A stretch of 64,000 nt of DNA from positions 62,001 to 126,000 of the forward strand of contig JAULBX010002224.1 of the NCBI GenBank assembly GCA_032358255.1, given 5' to 3'. The stretch is from Heterotrichella gracilis (lineage: Eukaryota > Sar > Xanthophyceae > Tribonematales > Xanthonemataceae). Under the pieces are notes generated by a model. That model was given only the letters and a program-made list of their open reading frames with translations. It searched no databases and had not been told where the DNA came from. Made by a program: the position numbers and the translations under genes. Positions 19,641-64,000 of this stretch are shown in pieces; position 1 is the stretch's first letter; every line of letters begins with the position of its first letter.

Positions 19641-22600
19641 ATGGCGCTGTCGTGGCGGGCGAGGGTGCTGCAGGAAAAGCAAATAGAGGACAAGGCGTCT
19701 CTCCAGGAGCAACACAAGAACTCTCTCGAAAAGCTGCTGCACCTGGCTGGGGTGGACTTCGATGAGATCCAGGAATCCCTCTGCAAAGCCCTTGACTTGC
19801 GGCTATATAACAAGGCACGCGAGACGTTCAAGTACCACTGTTGGTTTGCTTGTAGTTAGTTAGCTTCAAGCGTTCGGCAGTGGATCGAGATTGGCAGCCG
19901 CCCTTGCGTGCCCAGACCTATCTTGGCAGTGCTTACACCGTATGTATGTAAAACCTAAAGATGTTAGAGACTGGGGCAGCCATGTGGCTTAGTCACAGAC
20001 AGCACTTGCTTGTCTCATATGTGAGCAGTGCTGTTTAGGGTTGAAAGTTATCACAGACAGGACTTGCCTGTCTCAATTGTGTTTTAGAGTTTAGGGCTCA
20101 GAGAGCTTCACACTGCCCTTGCTTCTAGTCCTTGCCTGGGTAATACTCCACCCCCACCCCCAACCACTAATGACACTCTGCTGCCCCTTTGCCCATATAC
20201 ACCCCAACCCACAGTCCTCTTCAGGTGACATGCTACCCCCCACAACCCCTTCCCCTCGCCTGTGACTCCCTCCCGGTTGTGGTTGCAGGTAGAGGAGCTG
20301 CTGCTGGAGCAGCCCGAGCTACTGGTCGAGCCCTATGGACCCAATGGCTGCAGCTTGGCGCACGCACTTGTGCTGGTAGGAGCTGCCGAGCAGCTGGAGT
20401 ACATGATCAAGCGCCACCAGCTGGACCTGACGCTGCAGATGGGGCAGTTTTCACCATCCTGGCAGCAGAGTATGGCCAGCCGGCGTGTCTCAAGGTGCAG
20501 TAGTGGTGGGGGTGATGGCAATGCCTCGGTGTTTGGGTGGCTCATTTTTTATGTATGTATTCAGTGACCAATGTGGAATACGGTATATACCAATGCAGTT
20601 CCCATGGAGTTTGCCCATCCACACCCCGCTCCCCCGCTCCTTAACCCCCCACACACCTCCTTAGGTTCTGGTTGAGCATGGCGGCACCGATATCAACCAC
20701 GTACTAGAGCTGGTGTACCAGGGCGACAGGCGCACAGCAGTTGTGTGCGCCAGCATGGGTGGAGGCGACCCCAAGGGGCGCACGGTGCGGTGGACCGCGC
20801 TGTACCAGGCGGCCACCCACAATTGCCTCCCAGAGCTTGAGTACATATTGTCAAGGTATGGCTGCTGCACTGAGCTACCACCATGCACTGCATGGCTACC
20901 TGGGCTCACATTGACCGCACATGTGCATTGCATCAGCTCACTATTAATTAACAATTACGGAACAAATAGTTTACAAACATCACCACCCTGGCCTATGCAT
21001 GCATCTCTGGCGCGGCCAAGAGCGTCAAGGTGGGTGCACTGCAGCAGGCCAGGGGGTCAAGAACCCACCGTGATTCTCAAAAGAAAATTGGTTCATGACA
21101 TGGTTGTTTTGGTAGGAGGTATCTAATTGTGGGATGGCAATGTGCCAGTTGAATCTTTGTGATTCAAGTTTGTTCTTGTACTGTGCCAGAAGCACATGGC
21201 CAGCGCATGACTCACGGTCAATCTGGCTGTGCAGGTCCTGGTGTGTGCCTCACTGTTCCGCCTGCCGCAGGCTGGCGCATGGCTTACTGTTCCGCCTGGC
21301 TGTGCAGTCCTGTGTGTGCCTCACTGTTCCGCCTGCCCCATGCGTCACTGTTCCACCTGGCTGTGCAGGTGCTGCTTGAGGCGGGTGCCTGCGTGCATGC
21401 CTGCGGGGCTGGCGCCATGGCCCCGCTGATGCTTGCAGTAACATACGGCCACAGGGAAGTGGCGCAGCTGCTGCTGAAAAGGGCGCTAACCCTAACAAGC
21501 CAGAGGTAAGTTTGGGGTTTAGGGTTTAGGGTTTAGTGTATGCTGCATGGCCACAGGGAGGTGGCGCAGCTGCTGCTGGAGGCGGGCGCAAACCCTAACA
21601 AGCCAGAGGTGAGGGCGAGATTAGGGTTTAGGGTCTGAGCTTCAGGGAATGCGGCATGGCCACAGGGAAGCGGTGCCTGCTGCCTGGGGGCCAACGTGGG
21701 CAAGGGTTTAGGGTTTAGGGTTTAGGGTTTAGGGTTTGCTGCCTGGGTGCCAACGTGGGCAAAGTAGGAAGAGGGCGTGCACCAATGGCGGGGGTAGAGT
21801 TTCGGGTATGCTGCATGGCCACAGGGAGCAGCGCAGGCGTTGCTGGATTTGAACGACATTACTGCACACCACTCCTTTGTACTTTACTTTCAGTACTTGT
21901 TCCGATGTATGCTGCAAGTTGTGCTGCAGTTTTACTCCTTCCCATTACGCTCCCGTCACTGCAGATGGACTTCCAGTGTATTAAATGATGCATATAAAAA
22001 TTAAATTTTAAATGTCCCCGTTGCTGCAGATGGATCCAATCTTTATCCTGCCCCTGCACCGAGCCTGCTTTGCGGGGGACATCGACACCTGTCGGCTGCT
22101 GCTGGAGCACGGCACAAACCCAAACGGCACCCAGCCCCCCCGCCCCGGCGCAGGCTTTGACATCGCTGACCTCATCCGCCCTAGCCCGCTGCATCTGGCG
22201 GCTTACTTTGGGGATGTGGCTAGTGCGCAGGCGCTAATCGAGGTAGGGCATGTGTGGGTGTGTGGGTGTGTGGGTGAGAGAGATTTCAAGGGGGGCATGT
22301 GCTGCAAATCTACAAAAGAATCCTTTCCTGATACACCCAATACTTACTCCTCTACTCTGGCCAAGGCAGACACAAAAACGGATGAAAAATTTAATGAAGT
22401 GATAAAGGTAATATGAATGAATGATTGCTTGTTTCAGCTGGGTGAGATAGACACACAATCCCTCTCTTATCATCCATGGGACAGTGCTTGACTCTGATTT
22501 CCCCAAAATTTGTCGTCATTTTCCGCAGGCCGGCGCTGACACAGAAAATCTGATGCTCATCGCTACGGACAGCATGGGGGGCCTTTGCGGGCCCTCAGCT

Positions 22601-24805
22601 GCAACGTCTGCCCGCACAATGTGGGCAACGCCGATGACTGCGCGGCATGCCGCAAGCGCGCCGCGCATGGCGCCCCTCCCAAGGAGGTTTGGCCTGCCTG
22701 CGTCCTGGAGGTGTTTGAGGCTACCAAGCCCAGAGGGGCCAGGCGAGCCACCCATACTGCCAGGCAGGTAGGGACGCGCGGTTGGGTCCCCCCTCAACCC
22801 TTACCTTATAGGGTCCCACTGCTGAATTCTGTCGTTAGTGTCAGTTAGGCAGGAACAGGGTTATCTCCTTGAGCCTAATGATACAAATTGCCCTTACTGC
22901 CAAGCATGTAGGGATGTAGCCTATTGCCAAAATGCAACAAAATGTTACAAAAATTGTCAATAATAATTGATGTGAGCTGAGGGGGTGATTTGCTGTAATT
23001 CTTCAGCTGACTCACTTATGCTTGGTTTAAGGAGTGTGATCGTGCGCCATTACCTACACCTGCGCAATAGCTACATGGATGCGTGCCATCCGCATCACAT
23101 CATCCTGCGTAATATTAATCATTAGTTTTTTAGTATGTACTCAAATACAGTGCCGCCGAACAGGTGGGCAACGAGAAGGGCCTGCGGTGCGACCCCCTGG
23201 GCGCTGCGCTGCTGTACGGGCAGATGGAGGTGGCGCAGGCGATGGTGGACTCAAGGGCGGAGGTGGAGGGGCATGTGCTCATGGTGGGTGGGGTTGGGGG
23301 GGAGAAGGGGGGCTGGGAAGGGGGAGGGGCTGGTGTGGTGGGTGGGTTAGGTGGGTCATGGTGGGAGGGTGTGATGGGGGGTATGCATCCACTCCCCAGC
23401 TGCAGGACAGGAACCACAGGGCACTATTGGTAACACAGGTGTATAGCCACTGCCATAGGGTCAGCGCATTTGATGTATCCTCCACCATTCAATTTCCCAT
23501 CATCCCCATATCCCTTCGTCAGATCCCCCCTTGCTGCAGCGCGACACCCCCATCCCCCTCCTCGTCTGGTTCACCGCCCTAGGCAACCACGCCGCGGTGG
23601 AGCTCCTGCTTCAGAACGGGGCCGCGGCAGGCTCCAGGACTGAGCCCATGCCCCCCTTGCTGGGGAGGGACCACCCCTTTGATAGCGTGACTGCGCTGGA
23701 GGTGGCTGAGAGTGGGGAGGACGAGCGGATGATTAAGCTGTTTGACACATATAGCGTTGCTCGCCTGCTGAAGCGGGCTGCCAAGGTGCTGGTGGTGTGG
23801 GCAGGGGTTGGGCGCGTGGGGGAGAAAGGGGTTGGGGCGGGTAGTGGTGGTGGGGGCATGGTGTGGGGGGCTGAGGTGTGGGGTGTGTGCACAGCTTGGC
23901 CATCCAACAACCATGTCATTGTCAATCCATTTGTAAATCAATTGCATGGGGATAGATCAGATCATTCAGGAATTTATCCAAATCCAAGGCAGCATTCCAT
24001 CTTCATGCTGTGATTGCCGGGTTCTTATGCCAACAGGCCCACTTCCTCAAAGCCTATCAGCTGTCTATTGTACAAAAACTTGTATACATTAATTGTTCTT
24101 TGTCTTATTTACTCTACATGTGTTTATTTTAGGGCTTCCTCTTTGCCCGCAGGCCCACTCCATGCGGCGCAAGTGTGAGGGGCTGGAGGCCAAAGTGTAG
24201 CAGTCAGCGGCATGCACTGCTGTCAAAATCGTGATCACCCCATCGATTAGGGTTTTAGGGTTTTCCCTTGTCCATGCAGGCCCACTCCCTGCGGCGCAAG
24301 TGTGAGCGGCTGGAGGCCAAGGTGGAGGAGCAGGCTGCATCCATTGCAGCGCTCACTCAGGAGGTGCACAGGCTCAGGGGGGGTACAGGGGGAGGGGGCG
24401 CAAAGACTCTGCACAAGGCGCCGCTGGCGCTGCCGCCTGTGGGTGGGGCGGGGGAGGACAGGCAAATTTGTGAGCGCTGGAGGTCGCCTGCAGGTGCGTG
24501 GGTGGGTGTGGGGTGGGGGGGTGCTCACTGGGTGGTCCTACAATGTCCTGGTTGCAAATTTGCCTATGGCTTCTATTTCTCATTTCACTCTCGAAATCCA
24601 CAAACAATGATGGATGTGCTTCATTCTTTGAAGACTTGCTCTAGCCAGGGCTGGGTCACATCTACACCCTGATGTAATTAGTTAAGAGTGCCCTGTTGCA
24701 GGAGAGTTGAAGAAATGTGGTGGGTGTCAGGCAGTGTTTTACTGCTCAAAAGCCTGCCAGAAGGCCGACTGGAAAGACCACAAAGCAACCTGCACCCAAC
24801 CTTGA
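19641..24805 (+). CDS. Ankyrin-repeat, coiled-coil, C-terminal MYND zinc-finger protein with apparent frameshifts
   Basis: Probable protein-interaction scaffold; no enzyme domain seen. Likely exons: 19641-about 19831, 20289-20494, 20665-20855, 20937-21029, 21369-21505, 22030-22242, 22529-22767, 23164-23283, 23540-23785, 24280-24493, 24702-24805; about 650 residues. Ankyrin units include LAAEYGQPACLKVLVEHGG, PLMLAVTYGHREVAQLLL, LHRACFAGDIDTCRLLLEHG and AVELLLQNGAA. A coiled coil follows (RRKCERLEAKVEEQ). The MYND finger is at the C-terminus (CGGCQAVFYCSKACQ, then WKDHKATC); its expected first CxxC reads CERW. Four exons (20289-20494, 20937-21029, 21369-21505, 22529-22767) each need one extra base to stay in frame. 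All four can be repaired at a short homopolymer, and then all phases close. Either these are assembly errors or the gene is decaying. The exon 1 donor is uncertain. Confidence 0.75.
21440..21846 (+). repeat. Tandem shadow copies of an ankyrin exon end with TTTAGGG tracts
   Basis: The end of exon 21369-21505 plus donor (about 21440-21510) recurs at 21541-21614, in part at 21648-21680, and again at 21807-21846. TTTAGGG tracts lie at 21516-21536, 21622-21634 and 21704-21737. Within this block a 25 bp direct repeat, 21679-21703 and 21738-21762, with one mismatch exactly brackets the 34 bp tract of GGGTTTA units. Confidence 0.92.
24149..24327 (+). repeat. Pseudo-exon copy of the coiled-coil exon start
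   Basis: Bases 24149-24200 copy 24276-24327, that is the acceptor and first 48 bases of the coiled-coil exon. The upstream copy reads AHSMRRKCEGLEAKV and then a TAG stop exactly where the true exon reads GAG. A TTAGGGTTTTAGGGTTTT tract separates them. A shorter third match (CAGGCCCACTTCC) lies near 24033. Confidence 0.92.
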
Positions 24806-25580: not shown

Positions 25581-28500
25581 CTACAGCTCCTCCTTACTTT
25601 GGCCAGCTGCCCGCGCCACCTCCGCCAGCTCAGCAAACAGGCGCACATACGCCTCCCGCCCCTTGTTGTACATGGACAGGCGGAACCTGCCACACACACA
25701 TATTACCCTCATGCATATAAACCCGTGGCCAGGCAATGCACGGGGCAGTCTTGCAACCTCCAGGGGTCCTGAGGCATTTGCATGCAGCAAGCCACCAAAC
25801 CTTCTTACCCCTGTATCTGTCTGCACCCCGCAATTGATGTGTGAACCCATGCGCACCCAATACTGCCCTGGCTAGGGCAGGATTGCGTGAACCATGCCAC
25901 AGTTGCCCCCCCCCCCCCGACTTGCGCACCTTTCGTGTGGCGAGTGAATAAAGTGGTCTGGCAGTCCAAATGCGAACATCGTGGTCTTCACTCCCAAGTG
26001 CTCCTCAATCATGGGCAGGGCGGGGATGGTGGCCCCGTTGCGCATCCACACAGGCCGCCTGCCCATCACCACCTCGAGAACCTGCCAGGGTCAGTCACAC
26101 AATTTCATTTTTGGTTTTTTAAACGTGACTGGGTGGTGCTAGGTATAACACATTGAAGCAAATGCAGGCAATTCTGTGTGCAGGGACTTCAACAAGGACA
26201 CTTCATAGTTTCAATGCTATTTATTGTGATAGTTTGATGGTGTTGTGCTGATGAAAGGGGTTCTTGTGCTCAATACTGTTCCAGCCCAGTTCCTGTGTAG
26301 GTTAAGAGCACCCAAATCCCTACACCCACCTTGGCAGCTGCCCTGTTTGAGGGGGTGTCCTTGGGCATGTAGTAGGGCGCTGCGCTAAACCCTAGCTCGG
26401 TGAACTTGGCCTGCACCCCCTCGGGCACCACCCGCAGCACATGGGCCTGGATCTTGGCAAGAATGTCGCGAGGGTGCTGACCTGCCACGAGCCTGAACAC
26501 CACCGGTGGATACCTCACTTATTTATGGAATAAGAACTTCATCAGATAACAAGTCAGATTCAATGCCGATTGCATGTGAGCTCAAATGTGAGCTGTTAGC
26601 TTTGTGTTGGGTCACAGAAAGTGATGGTGGGAACAATAACCCTGCTAATGTGGCGCTGACAATGTCAAGGTATGTGCAGACCGACCGTAACCAGATGACA
26701 CGCCTTGTAGAAGGTGTCCAAAATTGCATGGATCGAAGAGATGGACCATGGGCCCTGGCTTGCCCAATCACATGGCTTATACAGGCTGGACTGCACCACC
26801 CCCCCAAGCGCGCACCTGCTTGACACCTTGACCACTGCCTTGGCAGGTATGATAGTCTTCACCCCGTCACCCGTGTAGCCGCTGTACACACCAATCACAT
26901 CCAAGGTGGGGCGGTGCCACCTGGAGTAAGGCAGAGGGGGCCAATCAGCGGGAGAGGATGAAATGCAGTTAAACTTTAGTCTCCAAACACCATGTCTTGA
27001 CAGCAGGCGGTGACTATGAAGCACCAAATATATGATTATTTTGCATTTATTTCACAGCATTTCATTTAACATAAATTACAAAAACAATTCTCACTTGCGG
27101 CACTAACAGGCAAGGCAAGCAAGATGTGGGCAATGTCCAGCAACCTCTCGACAGGGGTTGGCATGCATGGCCCTCCGGAGTGGCGCTTTCAGAATTAGGG
27201 TTTTGATTGCAGGGTTTGGCACGCACAGCCGCTCCAGGGTGGAGTAGCCCTCTTCACCGAAAGGCCCCGCAGCACCCACAGACCCAACGAAATCAGCTTC
27301 ATCGAATGGGAAGACCTCAATGTCAGCCTTATCCTCTTCAGTGGAATCTTGGACACCGCTGCACAGGCAAGGGCACAGTGAAGACTGGCGCTACAGTCAC
27401 ACAGGTATGCAAGGCAAGTGCAAGACTTACTCATAGAATCCTTCAACAGCGATGGTGTTGTTGGGGTGGTGGAAGCTGGCAATCACTTGCGCAGCGGTCC
27501 TCGCTGCGTTGCGCACAGACCCGCCATATAAACCTGCACCATGCATGTCCGAGTCACTGCCCGGAGTCACAGTCACAAACCACAGTTTAGGGTCACAGCC
27601 ACCGTCCCGCCAGTCACCCCTCAACGCATCCGCGAACTGGACAAAACCCTAAAGGGTAAATGAGGGCAGCACAGAAAGCCGCTGTCCCTTATGCCACCAA
27701 CGCCTACCGGAGTGCAATTGTTTAGGGTTTAGTATTTAGGGTTTGAGGCATTGTATCCCACCAGAGTGCACTTGTTCAGGGTTTAGGGTTTAGGGTTTGA
27801 GGTCACCGTAGCCTACCAGAGTGCACATCTGTTGACAGCGTTGTCAGCTCAACCTCTATGGCCACAGCCCCCCTCAGTGACAGCGTGATGCCAGGTATGT
27901 CCTCCCCTATCTGGCCCCCGTCAGCTGAGAAGGCGGCGTCGCAGCTAAACAGCGCAGCATGCTTTGCGAGCACCTGGGAGAGCTGCGGGCTGCCTATCTC
28001 CTCCTGCCCCTCTATCAGAAACTTAATGTTCACGGGGAGGGTTTGGGAGGTCTTCAGATAGGCTTCTACCGCCTGCATTCATGGTGATCATCATTTGAAG
28101 CTACTGATCCTTCGAACTTAGAGCGCCCATCAAGCTATTTTGTTCAGAACTACAGACGGTGCAACATGTCGGGCAGCACAACCTCGTGCCACGATAGTAT
28201 CCTGGCATGCATACAATGCATGCATGCATGCGGTTGTGTAAAGCCTACCTGGATGGTGAGCAGTGCTCCGGGCTTGTCATCGTCGACCCCCCTGCCGTAG
28301 AAGAAACCATTTTCCAAATATGGTTCGAACGGGGGCCTCTTCCAAGCCGCAATAGGCTCGCCAGGTTGCACATCATGATGGGCGTAGATTAAAATTGTGG
28401 GAGCCCCTTTGGGCGCGTGAAGCCAGTCAGCGTACACCAAAGGGTGTTTTCCAGCCTTGATGATTATAATGTTCTGCGAAGATCCACAGCATCAGAGACG

Positions 28501-61146: not shown

Positions 61147-64000
61147 TCAGCTGAAGAAGTACTCCGAGTTGCACACCTCATCCAGATCCAAATCCCCCAC
61201 CACGGGCAACTCAGGGAATTCCACCCCCGGGTACTTGATCATGAAATCGTCCCGCAGCATCTCCAGCAGCGGCTGCGAATGCAGCTCCACAAACTTCTCC
61301 CTGATGAGCCGGTTCATGGTGTCAACGCTGCCCGCGTGGGTCCAGAAGGAGTCGTGCACGCCGGCAAAGGCCAGGCCTGTAGGGGATGGGGAGGGGTGGG
61401 GGGTGACAAGGGGGTGGTGGGGGGGCAGAAAACTTGCAACGTCCGTGTTTTACACAGCCGGAATCCATCCACCCCACCTTACAGACATAGCACCCACGCC
61501 CTACCAGCATGGCACCCCCACCCCCCACCCCCTACCCACCTGCTTCCTTGCACGCAGACCCTAAACCCTAAACCCTAAACATAGGATCCCCAACCCACCT
61601 GCTTCCTTGCACGCCGATGCCGTCATCATCATGTGGCTGGAGTCGATAGAGTGGATGTAGTTTGGCGGGAAGGCCGACCGCTGGCGCTGCTTCTGTATGG
61701 GCAGGCTGTCGTTGTTCTCCACAATCACCAGGCGCTGGAGCACGGTGCGCACGTGCGAGCGGTCCTGCAGGGGGGCGAAAGGGTGGTGAGTGGTGGTGTG
61801 AACTGAGCGAGTACACAGTGCACAGTGACGATGTGCTTGCCAGGAATTACCATCATAGCGCTAGTTTTCGTAATTGCGTGCTGTGTAGTTACGCTAGCAT
61901 GTACCACATGCAGGGGGGGTATGGAGCAGGAAGTGTACACCTTTTGCTTGATAGCTCACAGGCATTGAACAAATAAAGAGGGACAGCAAGACCAATCACG
62001 TCCCCCCGATACCTAATGCCAAAGCAACCTCACACTGGTTCCTTAAGGTTTTTGGTCTACACCGGCATTGTGATACACCGCCCACCCCCACAACCCCTCC
62101 CTTCACACCCACCTTCCTCCTGTTCCACACGACTATTCATATGGTTCATAGGGTTTTTATCGCCTTCTAAAGGTTTTATAGGGTTTCCTGCCATCATCCC
62201 ACCCACCTTCCTCCTGTATGGCTGCACCACCGGCAGGCCCAGCGGCGTGCTCCACATGACTGCCTGGTCCGCGTGTGCAATGCGGCGCGCGCAGTCCGCC
62301 AGCCAGTGCATGATGTGCTTGGCGCTCTGGAACATCTCGTGGAGGCTGGTCAAGGTGACCTGGGGGGTAGGGGAGGGGGTGAGCGGGTGGCGGGTGGGAA
62401 TGGGCGGGGGTTGCAAGGAGTGGGTGAGGTGGTTATTGGGTATGACTTGCGGGGGGAGGTAGATGGTAGCGCGGTGGAGATGAGGGGTACAGCTGGCATG
62501 AGGGTTGTAGATTAGGGTTTTTAGTTCCAACTGCCTCACAGCACCATGTGCAGTACTGCAACATGCCATCCTCCCTCCCCTCCTCAACTAACCCTCCGGC
62601 CCCCTCCTTCACCTTCTTCACCAGCCCGAGCATCACAGCACAACACCAATCCACCCAATCAACCCCCACCCCCACTCACCCTGGCACCGTAGCACGATGT
62701 CCGGTACAGTGAGATGTCGTCCTCCCACCCGCGCTCCCTCAGCCGGTTGCCGATCTGCGTGCGCGCCCCCACAAAGGTGACGCCGTACACCGAGGTCATC
62801 ACCGTTTGCTTCACAAGCTTGCGATCCACGTGGGGCAGCAGCAGCTGGGCGTATTGGCTGCCCTTCTCGGCGTCTGCCCTCACGCGCTCCAGCACCTGCA
62901 GGGGAGAGGATGGTTGGGGAGCTTTTTAAGGGTTTTAGGGTGGCTGGTAGAGGGGCACAGGAGAAGGTGGGTTGGGATGCAATGCAACTGGTTCACAGCC
63001 TAGTCGGATCGCATGCATTGCCAAAAACCGGAAGCAGCTGCGCATTGCTGCAGATTAAATCACAGCTCTTGCAATCCGGTCCCATCCGTTCCTCTGTATT
63101 TCCACACGCTACAGCGCTGCAAAGTATCCAAACTCATAGGGCATACGCAAAGACCCTACACCTTAGCCACCCACCAGCGCTGCGACCCCATTAAACACCT
63201 CCTGTGGCCCCTCTGCACATAACCCTAAACCCTGACCCTAGCCACCCACCAGCGCTGCAATGCCGTTGTACACGTCCTGCGGCCTCTCGGCCGGCCTCAG
63301 GTTGACTGCCGCCCCCCCCAGCGAGTCCCTGCCCAGCGCCGCATAGTGCTGCAGCCCGTTGCAGGACCCGTCCTGGTGCACCGGCAGGTGGCTCATGAAC
63401 TGCTGGGGGTCGTCGCACTGCAGCAAGGGGATAGAAGAACATCAGTTGGATGATGTGAGGTGATACAATGCATTTAATTCTCTGCAGTTTTGATGCAACA
63501 GCAATACAAATATGGCTTTCGCCCGTGGTACTAGGGTCATCCCTTCCCCAATTTAATTTACAAGTATTTTGACAGTGGTACAAAATACCATTCCAGTTGG
63601 TTACGTTTCCCTTGTACCCTAATCCCTCAAAAGCCTTGTACCCTGATCCTCAAAACCCTACACCCCCCTACCATACCCACCCGGCCCCTCACCTGCAGCG
63701 CGTTGCGCATCTCAATGCAGGCCGCCAGGCACTGCCAGGGCGAGTCCGCCTCCAGCCACCAGGAGTGCTCGGGGCGCGATTCAGAGCCGTTGAGCGGGTC
63801 GTCTGCGCTGGCCAGCACCAGGTGCAAGCGGTCATCCACAAACTGGCGCCGGTCCTCGAAGGACAGCTTGTCAGCGCCGCGACCATAGAGATTGGCCACC
63901 TGCGGTGGGTGGGGTGGGGAATTAGGTGCAGGAAATTAGGTCCATTTTGGTCTAGGTTTTCTCTCGTGTTGTATTGAAACAAACGGTTTGCTACGCCAAG
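61147..64000 (-). CDS. Phage-type (T7-like) organellar RNA polymerase, C-terminal part
   Basis: Single-subunit DNA-directed RNA polymerase of mitochondria or plastids (RpoT/POLRMT family). Minus-strand exons in the window: 63899-63693, 63417-63250, 62895-62680, 62359-62207, 61764-61599, 61376-61147; phases close, 379 C-terminal residues. The 5' part is outside the window, and 63900-64000 is intron. Catalytic motifs of the T7 fold are present: [18 protein letters not shown] (first catalytic Asp), [20 protein letters not shown] (the Lys and Tyr of the O helix), [12 protein letters not shown], and [12 protein letters not shown] (second catalytic Asp). The protein ends SEYFFS, like the FFxN/FFS ends of plant RpoT. 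Three introns carry shadow copies of exon edges. Mitochondrial versus plastid targeting cannot be judged without the N-terminus. Confidence 0.94.
61535..61614. repeat. 21 bp exon-end direct repeat bracketing a CCCTAAA tract
   Basis: CCCACCTGCTTCCTTGCACGC occurs at 61535-61555 and 61594-61614. The right copy spans the end and donor of RNA polymerase exon 61764-61599. The tract at 61559-61580 is three perfect CCCTAAA units plus one base. Confidence 0.95.
62106..62217. repeat. 18 bp exon-end direct repeat around TAGGGTTT units
   Basis: CACCCACCTTCCTCCTGT occurs at 62106-62123 and 62200-62217. The right copy spans the end and donor of RNA polymerase exon 62359-62207. Degenerate TAGGGTTTTTAT and TATAGGGTTT units lie between. 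Confidence 0.9.
63164..63288. repeat. Exon-end direct repeat around a CCCTAAACCCT tract
   Basis: Bases 63164-63183 are identical to 63239-63258, and weaker similarity continues to 63213 and 63288. The right copy spans the end and donor of RNA polymerase exon 63417-63250. ACCCTAAACCCTGACCC lies between at about 63222-63238. Confidence 0.92.

Follow-up and report, generated by a model that had tools for sequence, protein, structure and literature searches.

Telomeric tracts with duplicated flanks are widespread in Heterotrichella gracilis and concentrate at intron ends

The site at 21703 in the window, which is the whole 64,000-nt stretch of Heterotrichella gracilis DNA that was analysed, raises the question of how a pure telomeric tract came to lie between two copies of one short segment. 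The left copy, GCTGCCTGGGGGCCAACGTGGGCA(A), was read from the sequence at 21679–21702(3) of the plus strand, and the right copy, GCTGCCTGGGTGCCAACGTGGGCA(A), was read at 21738–21761(2) of the same strand. The tract between them was delimited by TRF and the tract count at 21703–21737 (+), and it consists of five AGGGTTT units. The copies are 24–25 bp long with one mismatch (96% identity over the 24 bp aligned), which confirmed the original prediction of a 25-bp segment repeated around a telomeric tract; the tract was measured as 35 bp of pure repeat. The gap between the copies and the tract is zero, and the A at 21703 is common to the left copy and the tract. Direct copies immediately flank the insert, which is the arrangement by which a tandem duplication at a staggered break is recognized. 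The tract sits in a degenerate unit that comes next after a 102-bp tandem array at 21447–21634 (+), which was delimited by TRF, a Pfam Ank match in the first unit, and the copies. In this array, an ankyrin-like exon end is followed by a 5′ splice-site-like word, GTAAGT (21506) or GTGAGG (21609), and then by telomeric words (21515–21536 and 21621–21634). The ankyrin-like exon was supported only as far as 21506 (Pfam Ank, E 1e-5), and a Pfam scan of 21719–21985 gave no match. At 21580–21606 of the window, the ankyrin-like residues GANPNK are encoded by GGCGCAAACCCTAACAAG, so that a telomere-like word lies inside a coding repeat itself.

The distribution of telomeric words over the rest of the window was evaluated against shuffled sequence and related words. 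(TTTAGGG)2 occurred eight times in the window and not once in 100 shuffles, and plus-strand tracts of at least 11 nt numbered eight for TTTAGGG and at most one for same-letter 7-mers other than its rotations. Flanking repeats with a score of at least 12 were found at 6 of the 14 window tracts of at least 11 nt (21515, 21621, 21703, 27778, 61558, and 63221). Further pairs enclosing a telomeric word of at least 8 nt were given by the direct-repeat pair list at 221, 19993, 24149, and 62106. On the minus strand at 221–360, a 71-bp duplication takes in the end of an exon, a word resembling a 5′ splice site, and telomeric words (TRF and the exon-end pair list, where minus-strand 63688 equals plus 313). 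The site at 24149–24324 (+) is of the 3′ splice-site type, with a CAG/exon start duplicated 127 bp apart and TTAGGGTTTTAGGG in between (direct-repeat pair lists). Units of 54 bp at 27702–27826 (strand unassigned) carry telomeric tracts at 27720–27732 and 27778–27798 according to TRF and the tract count, and a repeat was detected across 27778. At 61529–61614 (−), 27-bp copies surround a CCCTAAA tract (61558–61580), with AG/GTGGGT in both copies (repeat test and exon-end pairs), and at 63160–63288 (−), copies spaced 75 bp lie around the tract at 63221–63233 (direct-repeat pair lists). The same layout had been claimed for at least seven introns of the window; the count of places was about right, but intron status was shown for not all of them.

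The host genome (68.5 Mb, 903 contigs) held 834 matches to (TTTAGGG)3 and none to the same pattern read backwards, overlapping matches being counted. TTTAGGG is probably the telomere repeat of this species, and short internal tracts of such a repeat, which reach up to 40 bp here, are interstitial telomeric sequences (ITSs). The sampled loci were stretches around 100 listed matches of the 834, together with the window; two listed matches on C58 and those inside the window were left out of the fetched stretches. The loci were picked for carrying tracts, so their tract density is unrepresentative, and the controls were drawn from the same loci. Before counting, tracts whose flank was shorter than 90 or 100 bp were dropped, as were, in most scripts, loci L001–L008 (which lie within L009–L015) and L032, once L089 was fetched. 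In the full set, a direct repeat (score of at least 12, within 100-bp flanks) was present across 47 of 94 tracts of at least 21 bp, compared with 22 of 360 positions drawn at random 300 bp or more from any tract (Fisher P 2.5e-21) and, among microsatellites of non-telomeric sequence, with 1 of 30 (Fisher P 9e-7). In the first set (L009–L048 and the window), 49 of the 104 tracts that reached 14 bp were spanned by a local direct repeat, versus 5.9% of 222 random positions. Moreover, 67 of the 116 direct-repeat pairs in 293 kb spanned a telomeric word (random placement: mean 26.2, maximum 39 in 200 trials), and the other 49 held none. Tracts with duplicated flanks are a real and widespread feature and no chance artefact. 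The repeat excess and the 834 matches supported the original prediction of flank duplication by a widespread process, and the outcome that it had named as contrary, duplications no commoner than at random positions, was not the one observed. Both tract orientations occur, with 28 G-sense and 20 C-sense among the 94, the count being confined to tracts whose predicted coding segments to the left and right lie on the same strand. Clusters of telomeric tracts with a spacing of about 65–180 bp were noticed at C75:85519–85825, C130:100863–100968, C102:50469–50570, and C815:2276–2549. Regular tandem arrays of non-telomeric sequence were seen at L009:4678–4833 (period 53), L020:5658–5861 (period 101), and L026:9069–9200 (period 43).

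The architecture of the 47 repeat-bearing cases was then characterized. The copies are 12–77 bp long (median 29), with a median identity of 92%. Only 7 of the 47 have copies flush with the tract (at most 3 bp apart) on both sides, whereas 27 are flush on one side or both and 20 on neither; in the non-flush cases, filler or degenerate telomeric sequence separates copy from tract. The flush copy–tract–copy arrangement was found at 21703, L024, L028, L053 (where the copy is only 10 bp), and L077 (where another tract adjoins). A second telomeric word adjoins a copy in 23 of the 47, and the other 24 have none within 30 bp of a copy. No flanking repeat was detectable at 47 of the 94 tracts. Copy identity and tract purity were not correlated (Spearman 0.09, P 0.52, n = 55). 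The break-site register was not significant in the nine cases with at most 3 bp on both sides (left sum 9 versus 5.3 expected, P 0.125), and hence the telomerase signature of mammals is not demonstrated here. Microhomology at break sites was rejected as a signal, because the cases were too few and the right-hand sum of 28 (null 9.8) was driven by L077 (21), which is itself tandem. The phase of tract starts and ends was likewise set aside as a telomerase-template signature, since a hand calculation showed the start bias to be largely that expected from sampling exact (TTTAGGG)3. Among tracts of 11–20 bp, a sample not selected by phase, ends at ...GGGTTT exceeded the other phases. The idea that non-telomeric spacers are hidden telomeric sequence was also discarded; 35 spacers contained 31 telomeric pentamers, compared with 44.2 expected at the data density and 20.4 after shuffling.

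The tracts are concentrated near the ends of introns, lying a few bases in from the border, a point missed in the original prediction. This was explored with genome-wide adjacency counts, which are independent of repeat detection and refer to overlapping matches, not loci. GGTGAG pointed into a tract 710 times and away from one 193 times when both orientations were combined. It lay 0–16 nt upstream of GGGTTTAGGG in 411 matches and downstream in 150, and the corresponding values for the C-rich orientation were 299 and 43. Furthermore, CCCTAAACCC occurred within 24 nt upstream of the 3′ splice-site-like TGCAGG in 938 matches and downstream in 393, some of the latter being 5′ sites of the TGCAGGTGAG type. 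In the fetched data, a 5′ splice-site motif within about 20 nt pointed into 48 of 162 tract clusters and away from 10, whereas shifted clusters gave means of 15.9 pointing in (maximum 28 in 500 shifts) and 17.0 pointing away. Tracts of at least 21 bp adjoined a 5′ splice-site word in 26 of 94 cases (null mean 8.6, maximum 18 in 300 trials), namely 19 of the 47 with a repeat and 7 of the 47 without. G-sense tracts were commoner at these 5′ sites (19 versus 7 in the sampled tracts). Conversely, 42 of 121 candidate 5′ splice sites that follow coding-like sequence had a telomeric word within 100 nt, which in 30 of them lay 5–30 nt off. The copies themselves span a recognizable splice site in 15 of the 47 repeat-bearing tracts (8 at the 5′ site, 5 at the 3′ site, 2 at both; 32 do not), a count limited by the 701-bp length of the fetched stretches; by splice-site words alone, a 5′ word is present in both copies of 12 of the 47. 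A telomeric word was held by 33 of the 41 direct-repeat pairs at 5′ splice sites and by 32 of the 48 at 3′ splice sites, the latter list resting on a permissive rule and having false members, one of which is the dehydratase 5′ case described below, read on the opposite strand. The interpretation in the original prediction was therefore sound on flank duplication and on a widespread process but incomplete, as both the concentration at intron ends and the copies spanning splice sites were overlooked. No report of telomeric repeats clustering at intron borders was found among the papers listed by the literature searches, as judged by titles and abstract openings, and an exact-phrase search for telomeric repeats in introns had no match. 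This association is the surprising part, the kind of insertion itself being already known from mammals.

The origin of the copies was examined in 40 exon-end pairs whose two copies carry a GT at matching positions. Third codon positions accounted for 77 of the 144 differences (P 8e-7 versus one third), indicating that the copies come from real exons and that at least one of them is under protein constraint. Two coding copies had been considered because the differences in single pairs were synonymous only (dehydratase, 4/4; one L011 pair and one L023 pair, 6/6 each). This was set aside on the share of third positions over the 40 pairs, 53%, which is near the approximately 45% reckoned for one constrained and one free copy (P 0.044). 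Ungapped identity fell slowly into the exon; inside the intron it dropped from 0.88 at 0 to +4, a value partly forced by the pair-selection rule, to 0.59 at +5 to +9. This fall indicates that the intron-side edge of the copies tends to sit near the splice site; gapped similarity extends further in some pairs. Break hotspots at exon borders and a better detection of copies that contain a constrained exon may both contribute. In L014, L015, L022, and L023, exon-end duplications lie 101–214 bp apart, some without a telomeric word in the span, so that local duplication at splice sites also happens without telomeric tracts.

Conserved genes allowed derived copies to be recognized, single-copy homologous proteins serving in two of them as a partial substitute for empty sites in relatives. 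In a dihydroxy-acid dehydratase gene, the exon end VPFIADLKPSGKYVMEDLHK and the 5′ splice site GTGCGTG are doubled around CCCTAAA repeats, in copies of 77 bp with 91% identity. The duplicated segment is one stretch in the Pfam match and in solved homologous proteins, the nearest of which are plant chloroplast dehydratases; hence, one copy is derived. The Pfam domain matches the host genome only at C20:84981–87281, and the exons join in frame past the second copy to give the expected protein, with an intron of 364 bp. A third fragment is possible after the second copy, as judged from the nucleotides. In the second intron, of 441 bp, the doubled layout recurs after the exon end MAFKG, and both there and in L025 the similarity continues through the splice site and tract. 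The third intron (135 bp) has no telomeric word in the sequence read. An RlmN-like gene has the same arrangement at ...LLAGVNDGQQHV, and solved homologous proteins hold that segment once. Intron gain by AGGT tandem duplication requires an intron from the GT of copy 1 to the AG at the same place in copy 2, with coding resuming there. This was rejected for the dehydratase, the one gene considered, because its copy 2 runs into intron sequence, and the 3′ splice site is reached only about 250 bp downstream. Pfam scans of short exons gave no match for 7 of 10 in one set and, at E up to 0.1, for 7 of 10 in a second set, where two of the three matches were weak; a PDB search with L086 found nothing.

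These features may be explained by staggered double-strand breaks that were filled in and end-joined with telomeric repeats, either captured or made by telomerase, and by later amplification at some sites. This account is given about an even chance, and the break-repair interpretation in the original prediction is plausible. The overhang, X (copies of 12–77 bp), would be copied on both ends, telomeric repeats would be added to or captured at one end before joining, and joining would yield X-(TTTAGGG)n-X, with filler at many sites. Telomerase would be the likeliest source of the repeats, since it uses 3′ overhangs as substrate, and the genome carries a gene for it (telomerase RNA-binding domain PF12009, E 4.8e-13). 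Either end could be extended, which would produce both tract orientations, and an insertion would be tolerated at intron ends because one copy preserves the exon and splice site. Amplification of some loci into (X-T)n arrays would then have made introns longer at their ends. The fill-in may be the CST/Pol-alpha step that completes telomeres; CST and Pol-alpha-primase are described as turning 3′-overhang breaks into small tandem duplications (PMC8355091), and the union of telomere-type extension with CST fill-in is a suggestion of the present analysis. The repeat excess, the flush cases, the derived copies in the dehydratase and RlmN-like genes, the exonic nature of the copies in the 40 exon-end pairs, both orientations, the telomerase domain, and the published precedents (PMC2246262, PMC7215372, PMC8355091) count for the staggered-break account. 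By contrast, half of the tracts lack a repeat and few are flush on both sides, so that most are not clean copy–tract–copy structures. A correlation between identity and purity, which a single-event clock predicts, is absent, and the 49 of 116 pairs without a telomeric word also count against it, as does the clustering at splice sites, which random breaks do not predict. Furthermore, a later tandem duplication of the (X-T) unit fits equally well the 23 of 47 cases with a second telomeric word, which the original prediction had overlooked.

The scarcity of tracts flush on both sides lowers the odds of the staggered-break account and raises those of the reverse order of events, a real possibility that falls well short of an even chance. 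Here, telomeric tracts would have reached intron ends somehow, and their fragility (G-quadruplex, stalled forks) would have led slippage or template switching to duplicate the exon end next to them in tandem, often together with the tract. A second telomeric word beside a copy, the similarity that crosses splice site and tract in L025 and the second dehydratase intron, and same-strand matches about 75–230 bp apart (among the matches listed, C25:43099/43191 and C130:100870/100944) agree with this order. However, 24 of the 47 have no such second word, and among other microsatellites only 1 of 30 had a repeat across it. Repeat-free tracts should moreover be the common precursor, yet their frequency at 5′ splice-site words (7/47) is not clearly above the approximately 4.3 expected if half of the null (8.6/94) holds for them, and it is the repeat-bearing tracts that have the word in 19 of 47.

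That the tracts are selected splicing signals, as G-runs near 5′ sites and CTAAAC branch-point-like words near 3′ sites, with the duplications incidental, seems quite unlikely: the tracts adjoin splice-site words and the G-sense is commoner at 5′ sites (also genome-wide, 411 versus 299), but both orientations are enriched there and the repeats across half of the tracts are left unexplained. Introner insertions duplicate target sites and affect splice sites, and in this respect the present loci would resemble those left by a mobile element that duplicated its target site on insertion, for example an introner-like transposon whose ends are telomeric. Such an element is nevertheless highly improbable, since the insert in flush cases is little beyond the repeat and the copy length of 12–77 bp is unlike the fixed length made by a transposase. 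A 611-bp query from the 21703 locus matched the host genome elsewhere only at query positions 313–366, which are the tract and a few bases (a lower bound from one locus); no conserved core was found with this locus, the one searched, and over the repeat-bearing cases the target duplication has no fixed length.

With regard to the staggered-break account, it is tentatively suggested that breaks at exon–intron borders, which may be connected with transcription or splicing, might routinely be closed in this lineage by repeats that telomerase makes and by duplication of the overhang. Such a process, doubtful as it still is, could be a main engine of end-of-intron lengthening, decoy splice sites, pseudo-exon copies, and possibly new introns. 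With 834 three-unit matches in 68.5 Mb, the tracts are numerous enough for sequence alone to yield statistics on their location, the length of the copies, and the outcome of repair. They mark intron ends, so the origin of breaks near splice sites becomes testable, as do the action of telomerase and CST at internal breaks outside animals and the way in which introns grow.

Related insertions and duplications have been described in several systems, and the comparison is drawn from the portions of each source used here. Short interstitial telomeric sequences inserted at double-strand breaks are reported in primates, rodents, and horse (PMC2246262, PMC7215372), where empty sites and break-site register have been recorded for them, along with occasional duplications. 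The animal precedent in the original prediction was thus correct, but duplications are a minority outcome there: target duplication is given for 6 of 130 rodent and 4 of 25 primate loci (PMC2246262) and for 3 of 66 horse loci, ascribed to staggered breaks, with two more showing deletion and addition (PMC7215372). The tracts of H. gracilis resemble these mammalian insertions in that a short telomeric tract would have been inserted in one step, the target is at times directly duplicated, and telomerase is proposed. Unlike in mammals, repeats flank 47 of 94 tracts, as scored by a different method without empty sites; the genome repeat is TTTAGGG; and the tracts cluster at splice-site words, whereas location in human introns (31%) fits random insertion (PMC2246262, PMC7215372). 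The duplications made by CST and Pol-alpha-primase likewise involve a duplicated overhang and telomere-completion enzymes at breaks, but have no telomeric repeat between their copies as described (PMC8355091). In an analysis of direct repeats near splice sites in 213 introns, border repeats were likewise attributed to breaks; these average 11.4 bp, and the two mentions of telomeres in the portion used belong to one reference entry (PMC11782384). New introns of Daphnia likewise involve staggered breaks, direct repeats joining introns and exon ends, and iterative intron growth (PMC4202315); the exon-end repeats are 4–12 bp there, telomeres go unmentioned in the portion used, and intron gain was shown in Daphnia, whereas for H. 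gracilis it is a possible consequence of the breaks proposed at exon borders.
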